Assembly: GCA_035578175.1 (NCBI GenBank)
Contig: JAQMRL010000010.1
Coordinates: forward strand, 34,418,784-34,482,783
Source: Catonia carolina
Lineage: Eukaryota; Arthropoda; Insecta; Hemiptera; Achilidae
Reading direction: 5' to 3'
DNA length: 64,000 nucleotides
Under the pieces are notes generated by a model. The model saw only the letters and a list, made by a program, of their open reading frames with translations, searched no databases and was not told where the DNA came from. Shown in pieces: positions 4,409 to 57,170 of this stretch. Every line of letters starts with the position of its first letter. The first letter of the stretch is position 1. A program made the translations under genes and the position numbers.

Positions 4409-4578
4409 TTTTTTTTTGTTTGTTTAACGTCCGACTGTTCTGCAATTACTGCTAATGCAGACGGTGAATGATGAAATGATTTTTGTAACGTATGAAAATA
4501 TGCCGTGCCTGAATGGGATTCGAACCCAAGACCGCATGATGAGAGGCGAGCACGTTACCAACTTCGCCAATGCGGCCG
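4409..4578 (-). mobile_element. tRNA-derived SINE, complete copy
   Basis: Read on the minus strand it begins GGCCGCATTGGCG, has an A box in TGGCGAAGTTGG and a B box in GGGTTCGAATCCC, then a body with CACCGTCTGCATTAGCAG, ends CAGTCGGACGTTAAAC and finishes in an A-rich tail. It aligns throughout with the copy at 56987-57170. An 11-bp target-site duplication, ACAAAACTTAA, flanks it at 4398-4408 and 4579-4589. It would be transcribed by RNA polymerase III and mobilised by a LINE in trans. Confidence 0.85.
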
Positions 4579-30415: not shown

Positions 30416-30680
30416 ATAATAATTAAATTGGAGTCAGAGAGTAACCAGCGTAGCGATCGGACGTGTATTGTGCGCTCTCGGTAATTGTTTGTTCAGTCAT
30501 AATTATTCGTGTAAATCTCGTTTGTTTAAACGCGTTTACGATGTCTGGTCGGTGATTCATATACTGTTGGTATTACAAAACTTTTTTGTTATTTTTTATT
30601 TTTTTAATTTATTCAGTTACTAAGTTAAGAAGCTGTTAAAAAGGAAGAGTTAATCATAATAAGTGTTGAGCATCGTATTA

Positions 30681-31556
30681 ATGAGCTCTGAAGAAAAGTG
30701 CGAAAGGAAACGTTCTAGAAGTTCTCCGAATTTAACTGACAGAAACGTTAAGCAGTGCCAAGATAAAGTTATGGGGGATGAAAAGATCGGAAATATGACC
30801 TTATCACAAGTAATGGAGTCATTTAGGGTCATGTTAGACGAGAAATTAGCACACGTAGCGTCGAAGCAGGACATTAAATTGCTTTCGGAGAAAGTGAATA
30901 GTTTAGAAGAAGAAAATCGCGTCCTTAGAGAAGAAGTATTGATGCTTAGGCGAGTGTGTTCAAAGAGTGAAGCCAAGTTAGTTGATTTAGAAGGGAGGTC
31001 AAGGCGCAATAATCTGATATTCAAAGGTTTGGAAGACTTTCGGGGAGAATGTGTATCGAAAGTAAAGCGTTTTTGTACAGAGGTCCTTAAAATCGAACAG
31101 GAAGTGGAAGTTAATCGTGCTCATTTACTGGGAAATAGGAGCAATACAATAATCGCGCATATACCTAAGGATAGTGACATTGCTAAAATTCTCGAAAACG
31201 TTAAAAAGCTGAAGGGCACCAAGTTTGTAGTTCACAAGGACTTTCCAGAAGAGGTTCGTGTAAAGCGTAGAAAACTGTTAGAGCTGAAAAGCGAACTAGT
31301 AAAAGTAGTAGGGAATGAACCGGTGTACCTGGGATACGACTTTTTGAAGATAAAGGGTACAAAATATTTTTGGACCGAGAATATGAAACTGATGGCGGGT
31401 AAGGAAGACGGGGTACAAAAGCTGAAATCGGTATTTAAAATCGACTTGGCGGAGGTCGTTAAGAGGCTGGCGAATGTACAGGCCGTGGAATATCAACAAG
31501 CATTGGCCCGGAAGTCTGGTGGCGTCTGGAACAAGTCGACGGAGCAGAATATTTAG
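30681..31556 (+). CDS. LINE ORF1 protein (RNA-binding, coiled coil), intact
   Basis: ORF1 encodes about 291 residues from the ATG at 30681 (MSSEEKCERKRSRSS) to a TAG at 31554-31556. The N-terminus is basic and serine-rich. Around residues 65-100 lies a coiled coil (LSEKVNSLEEENRVLREEV), followed by LVDLEGRSRRNNLIFKGLED, the hallmark start of the RRM-like region of L1-type ORF1 proteins, then a basic C-terminal domain (FVVHKDFPEEVRVKRRKL). Such proteins trimerise, bind LINE RNA and act as chaperones in the ribonucleoprotein. No frameshift or stop interrupts it, in contrast to ORF2. An upstream in-frame GTG at 30663 is unlikely to be the start. ORF2 follows in the same frame directly after the stop. 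Confidence 0.82.
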   Translation: MSSEEKCERKRSRSSPNLTDRNVKQCQDKVMGDEKIGNMTLSQVMESFRVMLDEKLAHVASKQDIKLLSEKVNSLEEENRVLREEVLMLRRVCSKSEAKLVDLEGRSRRNNLIFKGLEDFRGECVSKVKRFCTEVLKIEQEVEVNRAHLLGNRSNTIIAHIPKDSDIAKILENVKKLKGTKFVVHKDFPEEVRVKRRKLLELKSELVKVVGNEPVYLGYDFLKIKGTKYFWTENMKLMAGKEDGVQKLKSVFKIDLAEVVKRLANVQAVEYQQALARKSGGVWNKSTEQNI

Positions 31557-34500
31557 GATCTTCCCGCAGCTCTTCAAGATGGTGGCAGTGAAAATAAAGT
31601 TGTGAATAGTGATGAGAAATCAAAAGTCAAGGTGTTATTTTATAATATATGTGGTTTAAAAGGTAAGGTAAAGGATAATCATTTTTTAAGTTTTTTAAAA
31701 GAATATGATATAATTTTACTGTGTGAAACTTTTATTATACAAGAAGATGTTACTTATTTTCAATGTTTTTTCAATAACTTTAAGATACGGTGGGTTTACG
31801 GAGAAAAGGTTTCTCATTTTGGGAGGGCTAGCGGGGGAATGATGTTAGGAGTTAGAATTGATTCAAATTATGTGGAAAATTGTAAATATGCAAACATAGG
31901 TAGTAGGCCAGTTGTGACATTAAAATTAAAAAATAGTAGAGAGGTCAATATATTGCCGGTATATATTAATTGTAATAAGTGGGATGCTGATTTCAATAGT
32001 TTATATGATGATCTTTTGCAGAATTCGGACATGAATGTAATAGTGATAGGCGACATGAATATACGAATCGGAGAAGAACAGGTCTTGTCGAGTAGAACGA
32101 ACACAGGTAATCGTTTTGCAAAATTTAGGAAATCGAAAGATAAGATAGTGAATGGCAGGGGGCAAAGGTACTTAGAGATGTGCGATGACCTAGGGTATGT
32201 TATTCTTAATTGAAGAACTGATGCGGACAAAGAAGGGGAAATGACATTCGTGGGAGGGATGGGCGTGTCGGTTAATGACGTAGCAGCAGTATCTGGCAGT
32301 GTTTTAGATCTAGTGTATGATTTTAAAGTGCAAATGCAGTCGTATTCGGACCATATGCCGATAGAATTGGAATTAGTAATCGAAAATAGTAAAATCAATG
32401 ATATATCCTGTTTGCCTTTGTTGCCGAAGCTATTATGGAGGGAGTCGAGTGATAAAAACTACAAAGATAAATTGAACAATTCATTGCGTAATCTTTCAAT
32501 TAATACAGAGTCTAATCAGGCTATCAGTAGTATATTAGAATCAATTAGGAAGGCAGCGGGGAGTCCGGTGGTTGGGGGTCAAGGTCAGGCATCTGCTAAA
32601 AGTAAACAATCGTGGTTCGATTACGAATGTGTACGTTCACGTAAAGAAGTATTATCGTTATTAAATTTATACAGAAAAACAAATGCGAATAGTATTAAAG
32701 ATCTATACTTAGTTAAAAACAAAGCATATAAAATGTTATGCGACGTAAAGCGTAAACAATATCAAAAGGCCCTATTAGGTATGATCTCGTCGGCAAAAGA
32801 CCCAAAAACTTTCTGGCGGGCATTAAACAGGTTCAAAAGAAGATCAAACTCGGTAAGCAATAAAATTAATAACGGGGAGTGGATTGATTATTTTAAAACA
32901 CTTTTAAATCCAAATTTGTTAGCTGGACCTGTTTTATATGCGGAACCGTACATAGAAAATCCTACATTAGACAATGAATTTAAATTATAGGAATTGCAAG
33001 CTGTAATAAGTAAAGGCAAAGATAATAAAAGTCCGGGTTTTGACGGTATTCCATACGAATTTTATAAAAAGGCACCTGTAGCTACTACTGATTGAAAAGT
33101 TACTGCAAATTTTTAACAATATTTATAGAACCGGCAGGGTACCGGATAGTTTTAAGGCGTCAATTATATTTCCGCTGCATAAAAAAGGGGCAATGGAAGA
33201 TGTTTCTAATTATCGAGGTATATCCTTTATGAATGTGGTAGCAAAGTTATTTACGGGCCTGTTACTGGGTAGATTGAACAGGTGGGTTGAAAATAATAAT
33301 ATTCTCAACGAATTTCAGGCTGGGATCCGTAAGGGATATTCAACGGTGGATAACATATTTGTCTTGTCATCTATTGTTAAACTCAGATTGGCCAAAAAGC
33401 GGGGAAAACTTTACTCTTTTTTTGTAGCTTTTTCCTCAGCCTTTGATACAATTGATAGAAGGGCCTTGTGTTACAAATTATCTTGTCTAGGGCTATCAAC
33501 GAGAATGTTAAAAGTAATAAAGTGTTTGAATAGGGGTACAACTGCAGCGGTATGGAGTAAGATTGGTATGACAGAAAGTTTCGAAACCGGCATGGGAGTG
33601 AGACAGGGGTGTTTGTTGAGTCCTTTGTTGTTCGCAATATTCCTTAATGACTTGCACGATGAATTAGAGGGGGGGATATTGGTAGGAGGGATAAGAATAA
33701 AATTACTACTATATGCAGACGATATAGTAATTATGTCAGAATCTCCAGTGGGATTGCAGTACATGATAAATAAATTGGAAAAATATTGTCAGAGTTGGAA
33801 TCTAAAAGTAAATTTGCAGAAATCCAAAGTAATGGTCTTCAGAAATGGGGGTAGGCCGGGTAATAATGAAAAAATGGTTTTATAAAGGAGAGCTGATAGA
33901 ATGTGTTAATGTGTACAAATATTTGGGTGTCTTCCTTACTCCCTCGATGAAAACAGAATACCATTTGCAGAAAAAAATGGTCTCAGCCAAATCGGCACTC
34001 AATGTAAGTTGGGAGAACGTAATAAAAAATAAAGAAGTGACGTGGGCAACCAAAACCAGTCTGTTCAGCGCATGTGCTAGGGCAATTATTTGTTACGCAG
34101 CCCAGGTATGGGGCTACAAGCAACACGACAGTGTGGAAAAGCTCCAGCGTTATTTTATAAAAAAGGCCCTTACTCTTCCAAATAATACCCCAAACTATAT
34201 GCTTTATATCGAAACAGGTATGGAACCATTATATCTGTATACTTTAAAATTGCACTTTAATTATATAATTAAAGCACTAAAAATGAAAGATGAAAGGCTA
34301 CCGAAAATCATGGCTTTGCAAATAATTAAAAATAATATAGGTTGGTTCAGGGAATGGGGGGAAATTGTGTCAAAGTTAGGTCTAGGGGTGAGATTTGAAA
34401 TAGGCAATATGGTGAATTGGAAGGGATGGTTTAGGCAAATTATATTATCACTCCAGGATAAGCAGAAGGAACGTTCTCTCGCAGAAATTAATGCCACAAG

Positions 34501-34807
34501 ATATCACAGTTGGTACAAACAGCTAAACGTAGTTCTAGGTGAAGCCAGTCATTTTAATGTAATGGAGGATCTGTCAAAAATCAGGTGGATCATTAAAGCG
34601 CGTGGTGAATTGATAGACCTAAATTACAAACCATGGGTTGTGGATAAAAATTTTAATTGTTCTATGTGTAATTTGGGAGAAAAAGAGGACATATTTCACT
34701 TTGTGGGAAGATGTCCAGTACTTAGGGAATGGCGCCGAAAATGGTTGGGGCAGAATGAATTGGGACAGGAAGCTTTTCTGGAACTTTTAAATGGGAAAGA
34801 CTGGTAA
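31557..34807 (+). pseudogene. LINE ORF2: endonuclease and reverse transcriptase, broken
   Basis: ORF2 keeps an APE-type endonuclease (VLFYNICGLKGK near 31630, IILLCETF near 31715, VIVIGDMN near 32040, YSDHMPIELEL near 32345) and a reverse transcriptase (FKASIIFPLHKKG, NYRGISFMN, GVRQGCLLSPLLF near 33600, YADD at 33712-33723), then a C-terminal CxxC...H...C motif (CSMCNLGEKEDIFHFVGRC) near 34660. Damage: in-frame stops at 32211-32213 (where the family has a glycine after asparagine) and 32988-32990; a stop plus frame change at about 33090-33103; and a frame change near 33875 inside an A run. RT motif A reads FFVAFSSAFDTI, with alanine (codon 33427-33429) where the first catalytic aspartate belongs. 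The element cannot move itself. Confidence 0.85.
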
Positions 34808-36689: not shown

Positions 36690-38460
36690 TCCAAAACCTG
36701 CTAAGTCAAAAATATCGTATTTCTCTTTTTTTGGTTATATGGGTTGTTTTTGAACTAATCTAGCATATGTTAAATGTTTTTTTCCAAATGCTGCAAACTG
36801 CTGTATTACTGGCATAACAAAAAATTATTTTTTTTCCAAACACTGTTTAGTCAATCAAAAGTTTTTTTCCATAATCTGCTAAGTCACTACGCATGCGCAG
36901 TTGGTAATTCTGAATCGTATAATGTAAACCTAACCTCTAACCTTAGTGTGGAAACTTTGGAAAGATGAAAGACTTAATCAAAAACAAGCAATTTGTTCAT
37001 TCTCTAAATACTATAACATTTTTGTTAGTTGTTTTAATTTGGGGTTTGGTAATCCGAGGACAGACATTTGTTCGTTCTGTCAGTTACAGGCCAGCAAAAT
37101 AAAATCTGCTAGACATCCTTTGCAAAAACTTGATCTTAACACTCAACTTCGGCTTCATAAACTGCGAGCTAAAAAGTTTTACCAACAATTAAAGGAAAAA
37201 AAGCCTGGTACTGTTAAAGTTGCATTTGATATGCAACAGAATCAGCCGCTGCCCAAATTAAGTGTGAATGATGTGTACTATTCTCGTCAGATTTGGCTGT
37301 ATAACCTGACCTTTGTAATACATAATGCTGATGGCCATCAAAATAAAGATAATATTTTCATCTATGTTTGGACTGAAAATGAACAAAAGCGTGATTCCAA
37401 TACTCTGTTTGTTCTGCTGTTATGGATTTTCTTCAAAATATGGAAAGTAAATTTTCTGCTCTGGACGATAAACCAACAAAGTTGATGCTTTTCTCTGATT
37501 CATGTTCCGGTCAGAATAGGAATAAGGAGATGTTATACACTTTAGCTCGTTTTATTAGTAAGACAGGTATATTTAACAAAGTTGAGCATATATTTCTTGT
37601 AGTGGGGCACAGTTATTTACCTCCAGACAGAGTTTTTGGGAACGTAGAAAAAGTACTGCGTAAAACTGAGTCAATAGTTTCTCCTAATCATTATTATAAA
37701 ATTCTTGAAAATTTTGGCCACGTAAAAGTGTATGGAAGAGACTGGGTTTGTTTTAATATTAAAACGGTTGCAGAGCAAACAATGAAAGTAAAACTACCAT
37801 TTTTGACTACACAACAAAAAGCATTTGAATTTAAAAAAGGATCAAGAACTATTGGGTGTAAAACTGTATACACTATGGACTACGTACAATGTATAGTTAA
37901 ACGGCGGATCGTGTCATCTTTCTCAAAACTGCCATTGAAAAGATTAGAGAGTAGAAATACAGTTAGTGAAGAAAAGAAGAAGGATGTAAGGAAGCTTTTA
38001 AAGTATGTTCAACCCTTGTCAGCTGAGGCAAGGCTATTTTATGAGGAATGTTTTAAGGAGAATGCAACAGTACAAGTAGAAGAAGAAGATAAAATATTGA
38101 AGAAAATAGTGTTTATTTGTTGTAACTTTTTAAATAATGTAAAGACTAATGCTTTTTTTATTTAAGTTAGATTAAGAAAACTATTGTACAATGAATTTTT
38201 ATTCCATTATACTTTCTCTTTTAAACTGTGATTCATTGCTTATCCCTTACTCTCTACCGAATGTTAGAAAACATTTCAGAAGATTTTTGAACTATAATAA
38301 TAATAACATTATGTCCAAATGGCTAACTTTTAAGGCAAACTATAGTAAATCAGCTGTTTTGTTATAATGACATACTAAACTGTTTCAGTTGATGTCATAA
38401 TATAACCCACTATTTTTTTCCAAAATATGCTTAGTCAGTGACTAACCAGGTTTTGGAAAA
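36690..38460. repeat. Subterminal repeats of the DNA transposon
   Basis: The core TTTTCCAAAACCTGCTAAGTC from the inverted repeat recurs as diverged copies near 36778 (TTTTTTCCAAATGCTGCAAA), 36832 (TTTTTTCCAAACACTGTTTA) and 36866 (TTTTTTCCATAATCTGCTAA), all in the same orientation. At the right end, near 38411, there is TTTTTTTCCAAAATATGCTT, then the inverse AACCAGGTTTTGGAAAAAAA at 38442-38466. Spaced subterminal copies of this kind usually serve as transposase binding sites; that role is inferred. Confidence 0.65.
36946..38165 (+). pseudogene. DUF7869-like transposase, frameshifted and lacking N-terminus
   Basis: The open frame from about 36934 reads FNLGFGNPRTDICSFCQ (a CxxC zinc-binding segment), LRLHKLRAKKFYQQLKEKKPG, VKVAFDMQQNQPLPKL and YYSRQIWLYNLTFVIHNADG. 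It shifts frame near 37400, after KRDSNT, and continues from SVCSAVMDFLQNM as LMLFSDSCSGQNRNKEML, then FLVVGHSYLPPDRVFGNVEK, to a stop at 38163-38165. The conserved acidic residues (AFDMQ, FSDSC, PPDRVFG) have the layout of an RNase H-fold nuclease and match a protein family common in insect genomes annotated as DUF7869. No ATG begins the frame; a stop lies at 36931. A splice acceptor-like CTAACCTCTAACCTTAG precedes it, so an upstream exon may have existed. One 1-base shift disables it. Confidence 0.7.
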
Positions 38461-40788: not shown

Positions 40789-40792
40789 ATAT

Positions 40793-41499
40793 TGTCGCCG
40801 ACGACCCCACAATTATCAGCGCTGCAAACGGTCGTAGTACCGGCCGCGGGGGGAGCTAATGACGCGCAGCAGGCAGTGCCTCCCTTCCACCATGAAAATT
40901 GGACTCGCCGGAGGGGGGTTTAAGCAGCCGTACTGGACTGCGAGTCGAATTCGCCATCCAATTCCCGAACAGAGAAGAAGAAAGAAGATCTCAGATGAGA
41001 CCGGACGCAGCCATCCCTGGTCGACGGTACCGGTAACGGGCGCCACATTCCCGCACCGGTCAACCACGCAAACCCGGCCACCGAAGAAAGCTCGTGGGTG
41101 CCTCATGGCACCACGGTGAAGGGTAAGTTCAGCGCGAGACCGGAGAGAACCGCTTCGGCCGACGCCCTACGCTGACCCAACACTGCGGGGCTCTGGGGGC
41201 CACCACTCTCACGCTGCAGCGGGGACTCAACTGCCACTGAGGGAGAGTTAGGCTTGAACCCGACAGCCGAGTCGTCACTCTTCGGACACCGCTCTCAACA
41301 CGCCAGCTCCCAATTTCCGACCATCTACAATGGCACTTTTCAGGGCCACCAAAAAAACTCAATCGGCCCTTTTCAAGACAATCAGTCCGTTACATCAACG
41401 GTCCTTTTCAGGACCCCCAACCAATTAAACGGCCCTTTTCAGGGCCACTAACTTTGCAACCAAGGTTTTGCCACGTGTCGTCGGCCCCGATTGGCAACA
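40793..41499 (+). mobile_element. LTR-B: GC-rich solo LTR
   Basis: A 707-bp island, much more GC-rich than anything else in the window, begins TGTCGCCGACGACCCC and ends CCGATTGGCAACA. The ends have the TG...CA form with inverted TGTYGCC, and ATAT flanks both sides (40789-40792 and 41500-41503). Length, ends and duplication match a solo LTR of the same general kind as LTR-A. It has no TATA box or AATAAA on either strand; one ATTAAA occurs at 41424-41429. A splice-donor-like GAAGGGTAAGTTC lies at about 41117. Near the right end is an array of histone-type stem-loops. Plus orientation is inferred from those stem-loops only. No protein family was recognised in either strand. Confidence 0.68.
41332..41446 (+). 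promoter_or_regulatory. Array of four histone-type 3'-end stem-loops
   Basis: Four 16-base units spaced 33, 35 and 31 bases apart. Those at 41400-41415 (GGTCCTTTTCAGGACC) and 41431-41446 (GGCCCTTTTCAGGGCC) are perfect 6-bp stems with a UUUC loop, meeting the metazoan histone mRNA stem-loop consensus. The one at 41332-41347 (GGCACTTTTCAGGGCC) has one mismatch, and the one at 41365-41380 (GGCCCTTTTCAAGACA) is degenerate. The flanks are also histone-like: AATTAAAC before and ACTAA or CCCAACC after. In histone mRNA this element binds SLBP and directs 3' processing without polyadenylation. No histone gene is present. Their role in an LTR is unknown: 3' processing, or palindromic protein-binding sites. 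Confidence 0.62.
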
Positions 41500-41503
41500 A
41501 TAT

Positions 41504-42946: not shown

Positions 42947-43561
42947 TGTAGCGTGCCGAATTGACTGAACACCTGGAATTGTTTATTTTTTCTATTTATT
43001 AAAATGATAAACATCTCCAGCTGATTATTTTTTAAGAATTATTTAAAATTATTTCACATCAACAAAATTATTTTAATAAAAGTTATTTATTTCAGTTGCT
43101 AGGCGACTAGAGAAGAACAAGATAAATTTTATATGAAATTAATTTTAGTGAGGGGCAAGATGGCGGAGGAGTAGGCGGGCCTCTCACTCAGTTCTTTAAA
43201 AAATAGTTAATATCAAGAGGAATATTTATTTATTTATGTTTCACTTACTCAATCTTACATAGGAACATTTTTAATAAAAAATAGTAAAAAATGTATTGAT
43301 TCAAATAATGTAAATGTGCGTAATGTATTGTAATGTGTTGATTGCTGTTCGTGTTAACAGATTGTTGTTATTGAGTTCAGTTTACTAATTTTTATACAGT
43401 TTATAATAATGAACTATAAAATAAATATCCAACAAATTTACTGAATTTTATCGTGAGTAACATTTATTTATATTACAAATTGTCCATCCCTTGTGAGTAC
43501 TATTTTAATTTCTCTACAAATTGGCATCCAGCTTGTGTGGAGAATATTTTATTTCTCTTCA
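42947..43561 (+). repeat. 5' LTR of the gag-only element
   Basis: It contains AGGGGCAAGATGGCGGAGGA near 43153, an AAATAAATATCC possible polyadenylation signal near 43420, and two of the four PBS-like repeats at its 3' end. Confidence 0.9.
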
Positions 43562-43640
43562 AATTGTCAATCCCTCGTGGGGAATAACGAAGAGGCATAT
43601 TAATTTTTCTTCAAATTGTCACCCTGATGTGGGGAAAGAC
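43470..43640 (+). repeat. Four PBS-like tandem repeats across the LTR-leader junction
   Basis: The unit reads roughly ACAAATTGTCCATCCCTTGTG, ACAAATTGGCATCCAGCTTG, TCAAATTGTCAATCCCTCGT and TCAAATTGTCACCCTGATGT, each followed by a GTGGGGA-like or GTGGAGA-like end. The first two lie inside the 5' LTR (and the 3' LTR), the last two in the leader. They loosely resemble a tRNA-Lys-type primer site; the true primer is not established. Confidence 0.6.
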
Positions 43641-43674
43641 TTATCACCTTTGGATTAGAAAATAGGGAACAAAT

Positions 43675-44421
43675 ATGAGTAATAATAGCAGGAATAATAA
43701 TAATGGTAATATATCGATAAACATGTTACAACAACTCATGTTGTTAGTAAAAAATTTAAACAGCAAATTTGATGAACAGGTAGAAAGTTTAAACAGCAAA
43801 TTTGATGAACAGGTAGAAAGTTTAATCAATAAAATGGATAGTCGAGAGGAAAGATTGGGAAGGAGAATAGATAGTTTAAACTATAAATTGGATAAGCGGG
43901 AGAAAAACATAAAGGAATTAAGAGAAGGGATCAAACAGGATAATATAAAATTAATAGAGAATGTAAGAAAAAGTCTAGAAGAAGTTAATAAAAATACTAA
44001 ACCAATACAAAAAGAAGTACCAAATATTATAACAGATAGTAATGACAATAAGAATAATGATAAAAATGTGAGAGAAAAACAAATATTTGAGGTTATATCA
44101 ACAAAAAATTATTTGGATGATGGTTTGAAAGAATTAAGAAATCAAGAAACAATAGATGGTCAAGTAATCACGGATCTTTCATTGGAAAAAGGAATTCAAT
44201 CTGATTTAACAGAAAATAGCAAGAAATATTTAAAATTAATAAACAGGAAAAAAGTGATTTCACAGTTTATGAAAAAATTAATCTATGAAGGTATGAATGT
44301 TATAAATAAATATGATAAACATAGTGACTGGAAACCAAGTGTTGATAGGTATACAAACCACAATAAGTGTAAAGAAAAGAAATCAATGTACATTATGTTG
44401 TTATATGTGTTATGTTTATAG
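43675..44421 (+). CDS. Gag-like coiled-coil protein of the LTR element
   Basis: A 248-residue frame from ATG at 43675 to TAG. The N-terminus is asparagine-rich (MSNNSRNNNNGN). Residues 28-85 form a coiled coil with a perfect 11-residue duplication (LNSKFDEQVES twice) followed by variants (RIDSLNYKLDKREKNI). The middle is lysine/asparagine/glutamate-rich, and a basic C-terminal part (KVISQFMKKLIYEGMN, DKHSDWKPSVDRY) precedes a short hydrophobic end that looks like read-out into non-gag sequence. There is no zinc knuckle and no pol domain. Position between the leader and 3' LTR supports a truncated gag; the function is inferred from position and coiled coil only. Confidence 0.6.
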   Translation: MSNNSRNNNNGNISINMLQQLMLLVKNLNSKFDEQVESLNSKFDEQVESLINKMDSREERLGRRIDSLNYKLDKREKNIKELREGIKQDNIKLIENVRKSLEEVNKNTKPIQKEVPNIITDSNDNKNNDKNVREKQIFEVISTKNYLDDGLKELRNQETIDGQVITDLSLEKGIQSDLTENSKKYLKLINRKKVISQFMKKLIYEGMNVINKYDKHSDWKPSVDRYTNHNKCKEKKSMYIMLLYVLCL

Positions 44422-44550
44422 TTTGGTTATAGTTAGTTTATAGTTTGGTTATAGTTTGTTTATAGTTTGGTTATAGTTTGTTTATAGTTGTTTATGGTTT
44501 GTTTATAGTTTGTTTATAGTTTGTTTATAGCTTATAGTTTATAGTTTATT
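44415..44550 (+). repeat. Minisatellite in the LTR element
   Basis: A run of GTTTATAGTTTGGTTATA-like units with a 9-base core GTTTATAGT repeated more than ten times, starting at the end of the gag-like frame. Confidence 0.8.
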
Positions 44551-44688
44551 TGATCAATGGAATTGTAAGGTCGCTTAGTAACAATTTTTAAAAAAAAACA
44601 TTTTGGAATTAAATTTATCAAACAAATTCAAAATTTAGATTATCATAAAAATTTCTTTTTGTTTTCAAAATTGAATTGTGGGGATATT

Positions 44689-45303
44689 TGTAGCGTGCCG
44701 AATTGACTGAACACCTGGAATTGTTTATTTTTTCTATTTATTAAAATGATAAACATCTCCAGCTGATTATTTTTTAAGAATTATTTAAAATTATTTCACA
44801 TCAACAAAATTATTTTAATAAAAGTTATTTATTTCAGTTGCTAGGCGACTAGAGAAGAACAAGATAAATTTTATATGAAATTAATTTTAGTGAGGGGCAA
44901 GATGGCGGAGGAGTAGGCGGGCCTCTCACTCAGTTCTTTAAAAAATAGTTAATATCAAGAGGAATATTTATTTATTTATGTTTCACTTACTCAATCTTAC
45001 ATAGGAACATTTTTAATAAAAAATAGTAAATAATGTATTGATTCAAATAATGTAAATGTGCGTAATGTATTGTAATGTGTTGATTGCTGTTCGTGTTAAC
45101 AGATTGTTGTTATTGAGTTCAGTTTACTAATTTTTATACAGTTTATAATAATGAACTATAAAATAAATATCCAACAAATTTACTGAATTTTATCGTGAGT
45201 AACATTTATTTATATTACAAATTGTCCATCCCTTGTGAGTACTATTTTAATTTCTCTACAAATTGGCATCCAGCTTGTGTGGAGATAATTTTATTCCTCT
45301 TCA
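44689..45303 (+). repeat. 3' LTR of the gag-only element
   Basis: Nearly identical to the 5' LTR and of the same length. It is followed by CTGT and then the right half of repeat A. Confidence 0.9.
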
Positions 45304-56986: not shown

Positions 56987-57170
56987 CCGGCCGCATTGGC
57001 GCAGTTGGTAACGTGCTCGCCTCTCATCGTGCGGTCTTGGGTTCGAATCCCATTCAGGCATGGCATTTTTTCATACGTTACAAAATATCATTTCATCCTT
57101 CACCGTCTGCATTAGCAGTAATTGCAGAACAGTCGGACGTTAAACCAAAAAAAAAAAAAAAAAAAAAAAA
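56987..57170 (+). mobile_element. tRNA-derived SINE, complete copy with poly(A)
   Basis: It begins CCGGCCGCATTGGCGCAG, has an A box (TGGCGCAGTTGG) and B box (GGTTCGAATCCC), the body block CACCGTCTGCATTAGCAG, the end CAGTCGGACGTTAAACC and a 24-base poly(A). A perfect 13-bp duplication GAAATCTTTGGGG flanks it (56974-56986 and 57171-57183). The clean tail and duplication mark a young insertion. A longer open frame running through it is an artefact. Confidence 0.92.

Follow-up and report, generated by a model that had tools for sequence, protein, structure and literature searches.

The histone-type stem-loop array near the end of a solo LTR in the hemipteran Catonia carolina is best read as the 3'-end signal of a Ty3/Gypsy retrotransposon family, which appears to have taken on the 3'-end module of histone mRNAs. 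We consider it somewhat more likely than not that the SLBP/U7 pathway cuts the element RNA after the last hairpin, thereby setting the R/U5 border and leaving no poly(A). The LTR lies in a 64-kb stretch of genomic DNA, hereafter the window. What carries the case is the occurrence of the hairpin throughout the LTR family and not the motif by itself, because bacteria, although they lack a histone mRNA pathway, can have palindrome arrays of this sort.

Hairpin units in the window LTR

The histone hairpin has the consensus GGYYYU-UUUC-ARRRCC with SLBP-type flanks, and this consensus, together with the Rfam model RF00032, served as the hairpin test. The LTR resembles the metazoan histone mRNA 3' end (RF00032; SLBP, U7 snRNP, CPSF73) in its 16-nt hairpin with a UUUC loop, AAC before and an ACCA-type flank after it, and in a conserved downstream block at the place where the U7-binding histone downstream element would lie. 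It differs from histone genes in that the hairpin sits within a retrotransposon LTR, often in tandem copies. The features, in window coordinates, are as follows; L034 is a coding member of the family described below.

40789..40792, no strand: left 4-bp target-site duplication ATAT, an exact duplicate across the LTR
40793..41499, plus strand: solo LTR of the Ty3/Gypsy family, TGTCGCC...GGCAACA, 707 bp, from the GC step, the genome matches and the orientation of L034
41332..41347, plus strand: histone-type stem-loop unit 1, one mismatched pair, 22.0 bits, below the RF00032 cut-off
41365..41380, plus strand: histone-type stem-loop unit 2, degenerate in its 3' arm, with the 5' arm and the loop preserved, from pattern match and alignment
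41400..41415, plus strand: histone-type stem-loop unit 3, perfect, GGTCC/GGACC, 19.6 bits, below the RF00032 cut-off
41424..41429, plus strand: ATTAAA, variant poly(A) signal, read from the window sequence
41431..41446, plus strand: histone-type stem-loop unit 4, perfect, GGCCC/GGGCC, nearest the LTR end, RF00032 35.7 bits
41447..41451, plus strand: 3' flank of the last hairpin, ACTAA in the window copy; cleavage is predicted after it, at the predicted R/U5 border
41452..41499, plus strand: predicted U5 if the RNA ends after unit 4, from the LTR alignment; the primer-binding site comes next in L034
41462..41469, plus strand: AAGGTTTT, conserved block, a candidate for either a histone or a GU/U-rich poly(A) downstream element
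41500..41503, no strand: right 4-bp target-site duplication ATAT, an exact duplicate across the LTR

The sequence-only reading of this DNA had described a 707-bp solo LTR with four stem-loop units, two perfect, one with a bad pair and one degenerate, and both descriptions hold. The element has TG...CA ends, ATAT on both sides and a sharp step in GC content (0.58 in the LTR vs 0.29 in the flanks), and the unit starts are 33, 35 and 31 bases apart. The 3' arm of unit 2, degenerate here, is intact in several other copies. The last hairpin is 53 nt from the LTR end, leaving a U5-like end of about 48 nt behind the hairpins; its 3' flank, ACTAA in the window, is mostly ACCAA in other copies, and the AAGGTTTT block begins 15 nt past it. 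With up to two mismatches, the pattern GGNCCTTTTCAGGNCC has four matches in the 64 kb vs 0.12 expected, and four were reached in 0 of 100 shuffles, so that chance is excluded at the unit density of the window. Likewise, GGYYYTTTTCARRRCC occurred in none of 5000 dinucleotide shuffles of the window LTR. On the window, RF00032 places unit 4 above its cut-off (35.7 vs 34 bits) and units 1 and 3 below, and does not list unit 2. The array folds at -34 kcal/mol, compared with -21.1 +/- 3.0 for 200 shuffles; in this fold only units 3 and 4 form hairpins of their own, and unit 1 is paired with unit 2.

Upstream of the array, the LTR contains a 93-codon open frame (40838-41116) whose ATG stands in the context CCACCATGA, followed by a splice-donor-like site, GGTAAGT; this could possibly be a leader exon. 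No protein relative with an E value of 1 or lower was found for an antisense reading frame of the LTR. An Initiator/DPE promoter in the LTR was considered, given a window TCAGTC (+1 at 41384) with GGACC at +28 to +32, a pair found in 58 of 5000 shuffles; it was rejected, as TCAGTC stands there only in the window copy among 40 aligned LTRs.

Several other elements share the window. At about 42948-45290 lies a second LTR-type element, with direct repeats 97% identical over 300 bases and 1742 apart, which by eye look longer (TGTAGCGTGCCG...); a 251-aa reading frame inside it (43666-44421) has no Pfam match, and it is perhaps an internally deleted element. A non-LTR retrotransposon spans 30663-34807, with endonuclease (PF03372) and reverse transcriptase (PF00078) spread over several reading frames. 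Among the best 120 of 160 matches, its reverse transcriptase (33082-33885) is most like metagenome proteins; of the named matches, those with the highest identity come from Nilaparvata (67%, covering 33% of the query) and Cimex (60%, covering 36%), which makes an insect, perhaps a hemipteran, the likely host. A reading frame at 37395-38165 carries PF25273 (DUF7869); the frame overlapping and preceding it (36934-37485) has no Pfam match. An inverted repeat pair, 95-96% complementary, lies 52 kb apart at 4409-4578 and 56988-57158.

The LTR family and its coding members

In the 1.47-Gb genome, the LTR search gave 3105 candidate places, of which 40 were scored; the 39 outside the window correspond to 38 fetched loci and are 73-81% identical to the window LTR over their main stretch. 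The 40 LTRs analysed are those of the 38 loci, two of them in L034, and that of the window. An exact 4-bp duplication flanks 19 of the 32 copies in which both ends were found, 7 of 39 being unscorable. Most of the sampled copies are old and decayed. All 40 LTRs contain at least one unit with two or fewer mismatches, 109 units in total, while shuffled controls gave 0.0 per copy; one unit was found in 6 LTRs, two in 13, three in 10, four in 10 and seven in one. When up to five mismatches are allowed, the count rises to 145 units, with four units in 20 of 40 copies, at a chance contribution of about 0.3 per copy; among these 145 the loop is TTTC in 95 and TCTC in 21. Most units have TTTTCA at the centre and differing flanks, AAC before and ACCAA after, and SLBP-type asymmetric flanks are found across subfamilies. 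In a young subfamily most units are intact, for example 4 of 4 in the 3' LTR of L034. The copy with seven units (L059, G000:C101:36154189-36156175) has GGCCC-like and GGTCC-like types in alternation, as if a two-unit block had been amplified.

The hairpin test identifies a histone-type hairpin not only in unit 4 of the window; yet a unit exceeds the RF00032 cut-off in only 11 of the 38 loci, and only 28 of 38 have any unit at E 0.05 or better, which counts against the proposed reading. A scan of the genome with RF00032 itself, in which 75 of 344,617 candidates were scored, reported 72 matches, 66 of them above the cut-off. Of these places 42 were examined, 30 supplied by the scan as loci plus the 12 weakest, and BLAST matched every one of them to this LTR; no H3 or H4 gene was found in the roughly 300 nt upstream of those 12 weakest.

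Full elements with this LTR, a check proposed along with the sequence-only reading, do exist in near-complete coding form at three loci (L034, L130 and L132), with the 5' LTR truncated in each. The LTR pair of L034 is 98.6% identical over 571 bp. Its internal part has three separate open stretches with Pfam matches to Ty3_capsid and Retrotrans_gag, to RVP, RVT_1 and RNase H, and to Integrase_H2C2 and rve; a stop separates the two polymerase stretches, and no repair was applied. Directly behind the 5' LTR stands TGGCGCCCAACGTGGGG, the primer-binding site, and a G-rich tract precedes the 3' LTR. The primer-binding site is present in all three elements and the G-rich purine tract in L034, L110, L114 and others. 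The internal part of L034 recurs in L130 and L132 at 97%, and its second half in L131 at 98%. L130 and L132 both have the full internal part and are 137 kb apart; in L130 the 5' LTR starts exactly at a hairpin unit, with AT-rich DNA before it. In viral contigs no relative of the L034-type polymerase was found; two metagenomic relatives of it have 74 and 66% identity.

By its LTR ends, 4-bp duplications, domain order, primer-binding site and purine tract, the family is classed as a Ty3/Gypsy LTR retrotransposon. It shares with this group (Metaviridae) the gag and the protease-RT-RNase H-integrase order, TG...CA LTRs, 4-bp duplications, primer-binding site and purine tract, and differs from other Ty3/Gypsy elements in the hairpin array at the presumed R/U5 border and in lacking a family-wide AATAAA or ATTAAA. 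Since the primer-binding site directly follows the LTR, the hairpins are in the sense strand, near the predicted RNA end at which R and U5 should join. An LTR running opposite to its stem-loops, with no stem conservation among copies, had been named as an outcome favouring simple palindromic protein sites, and it was not observed.

The common 3' end and its conservation

The LTRs vary upstream and in unit number, and have a common end: a hairpin with AAC before it, ACCAA after it, a variable stretch and then AAGGTTTTGCCACGTG. LTRs retain this end module whether they have a single unit, two or more. The tail was found in 86 of 89 loci (up to 9 mismatches in 25), and a last hairpin is recognisable in 82 (four or fewer mismatches). 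The spacing from hairpin to AAGG is exactly 15 nt in 75 of the 82, one place being counted twice (L093 and L127). Because 30 of the 89 loci had been picked by the histone model itself, the LTR-selected loci were also counted separately. Taken as a whole, the layout is, at the level of sequence, that of a histone 3' end, with a putative SLBP site, a predicted cut region and a candidate downstream element.

Conservation was measured under two anchors. The hairpin-anchored set comprises 53 of the 59 LTR-selected loci, six having been dropped (two without the tail, four with a decayed last hairpin). Here the information content in bits per column is 1.46 at -3 to -1, 1.63 in the hairpin, 1.59 at +1 to +5, 0.97 at +6 to +15, 1.56 at +16 to +23 and 1.16 at +24 to +44; the footprint from -3 to +5 has 1.60 vs 1.19 around it (p = 6.5e-6). 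With the tail as anchor (57 of 59 loci), the value for the footprint is 1.39 bits vs 1.06 at -10 to -4 and 1.14 at +6 to +15, and compared with the whole rest, in which the tail itself is high (1.67, 1.41), p is 0.39. The footprint thus exceeds its direct neighbours under either anchor, and the strong p value hinges on the choice of anchor.

A MAFFT alignment anchored on neither hairpin nor tail (38 of 40 rows, excluding L059 and the 5' LTR of L034) gives a mean pairwise identity of 0.807 for hairpin cores vs 0.685 for the spacers between units (p = 0.004). Compared with the LTR stretch that precedes the array (0.782, p = 0.45), the cores show no higher conservation, and their excess over the stretch behind the array is doubtful (0.749, p = 0.09). 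The AAGGTTTT block reaches 0.876, compared with 0.689 just before and 0.735 after it.

The sequence-only reading had also seen compensatory change between units 3 and 4, whose stems differ in sequence and still pair. The change recurs in other four-unit copies, but it amounts to essentially one event, and stem covariation among copies is weak. There were 23 double changes in the stems, compared with 10.1 expected by independence and 11-17 in shifted controls, and 15 of the 23 still pair; doubtful units are among the rows, and part of the double changes could stem from the decay of CG dinucleotides.

Predicted 3'-end formation and the alternatives

In the proposed mechanism, SLBP would bind the last hairpin of the element RNA and U7 snRNP the downstream AAGGTTTT block, whereupon CPSF73 would cut after the ACCAA of the last hairpin, giving a genomic RNA that stops at this point and has no poly(A). 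Such a cut would determine the R/U5 border and place an R with at least one hairpin at both RNA ends for strand transfer; the synthesis and retention of full-length RNA would fall mainly in S phase. Single-unit LTRs suggest that one unit can suffice; the extra units upstream may be duplicates that back up the signal. For comparison, the histone H3 mRNAs of C. elegans have the sequence AACGGCCCTCTTTAGGGCCACA, and in this worm the ends of histone mRNAs lie 3-6 nt past the hairpin (PMC1924863).

A first alternative, which we regard as unlikely while giving it real weight, is that the hairpins bind SLBP for stability, export or translation in S phase, and that the usual cleavage and polyadenylation machinery makes the 3' ends, guided by ATTAAA or weak variants, with GGTTTTG as the downstream element. 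The window LTR has no AATAAA, as the sequence-only reading correctly stated; it does have the variant ATTAAA noted above. Within 260 nt before the tail, 85 copies include 20 with ATTAAA and 7 with AATAAA, which would suit such a process, as would the AAGGTTTT block conserved behind the last hairpin, which may just as well be the downstream element of a poly(A) site. Human H2AC18 has both types of signal, overlapping (PMC9756948), and in C. elegans histone genes a poly(A) signal lies close behind the hairpin (PMC1924863). What speaks against ordinary polyadenylation is that both hexamers are missing in 60 of the 85 copies. Among LTR-selected copies alone, ATTAAA is found in 18, AATAAA in 6 and neither in 35 of 57. 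ATTAAA is frequent in the subfamily of the window and absent from the young coding subfamily, where the alignment has CAATCAAAC in its place. Because 60 of 85 copies are without either hexamer and the young subfamily has CAATCAAAC there, a family-wide poly(A) hexamer is thus absent; unusual signals are possible.

It is improbable that the units act instead as DNA, that is, as palindromic protein sites for an enhancer or insulator, for integration or for silencing, with the histone likeness arising by chance or borrowed. The palindromic arms in tandem would fit such sites, and near-identical arrays are found in bacteria, without a histone mRNA pathway. A 257-Gb prokaryote collection yielded similar palindrome arrays at six loci, one of which (L003, a Siccirubricoccus contig) has GGCCCTTTTCAGGGCC twice, 35 bases apart, flanked by near copies. 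At four of the six, the array resembles one short word repeated in series, as is seen in repeats inside transposase-like genes. Viral contigs gave no matches for two array patterns and 19 loci with a looser one. A two-fold DNA site, however, needs neither the TTTTCA centre nor the asymmetric AAC and ACCAA flanks, which match the histone site, and the position at the LTR end and the spacing to the downstream block likewise argue against it.

Least probable of all, by a little, is that the LTR acquired a histone 3' end in a single event and has since carried it along with no function today. In favour, every sampled copy goes back to LTRs with the module, most are old and decayed, the footprint conservation is not independent of the anchor chosen, and Tm1-HH (below) suggests that transposons do capture hairpins (PMC3169594), but the cores are more conserved than the spacers between units, the young subfamily has mostly intact units (as in the L034 3' LTR), and the end module is retained whatever the number of units.

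The sequence-only reading knew of no LTR family of this kind. Among the papers listed in the literature searches no LTR element with a histone hairpin was found, which, with subscription papers mostly outside the coverage, is not proof of absence; the nearest relative is a DNA transposon, Tm1-HH of root-knot nematodes. As described (PMC3169594), Tm1-HH resembles our family as a set of dispersed mobile elements with a histone hairpin, which in Cg-1 lies near the transcript 3' end. It is there a Mutator/Foldback element with composite terminal inverted repeats and 9-bp duplications, with eight elements in M. incognita. The C. carolina family is an LTR retroelement with reverse transcriptase and 4-bp duplications, lacks the defining features of Tm1-HH, and has thousands of candidate places (3105 and 3471 at first look, 40 scored per search). 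As far as these sources reach, an LTR family with a histone module appears to be new, and a histone hairpin in a mobile element is already known (PMC3169594).

A 2007 paper states that no genes apart from the replication-dependent histone genes of animals are known to give mRNAs that lack poly(A) tails (PMC1924863). We put it at slightly better than even that in this family SLBP and U7 snRNP take the place of the poly(A) machinery in defining where the genomic RNA ends, and with it the R/U5 border, with the life cycle tied to S phase and a genome-wide load of histone-type processing sites. If this is true, the elements would have a new route to terminally redundant RNA without poly(A), and their transposition would be coupled to DNA replication. 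Histone-type processing sites would also have spread through the genome, possibly in thousands of LTR copies, where they could end or regulate host transcripts.
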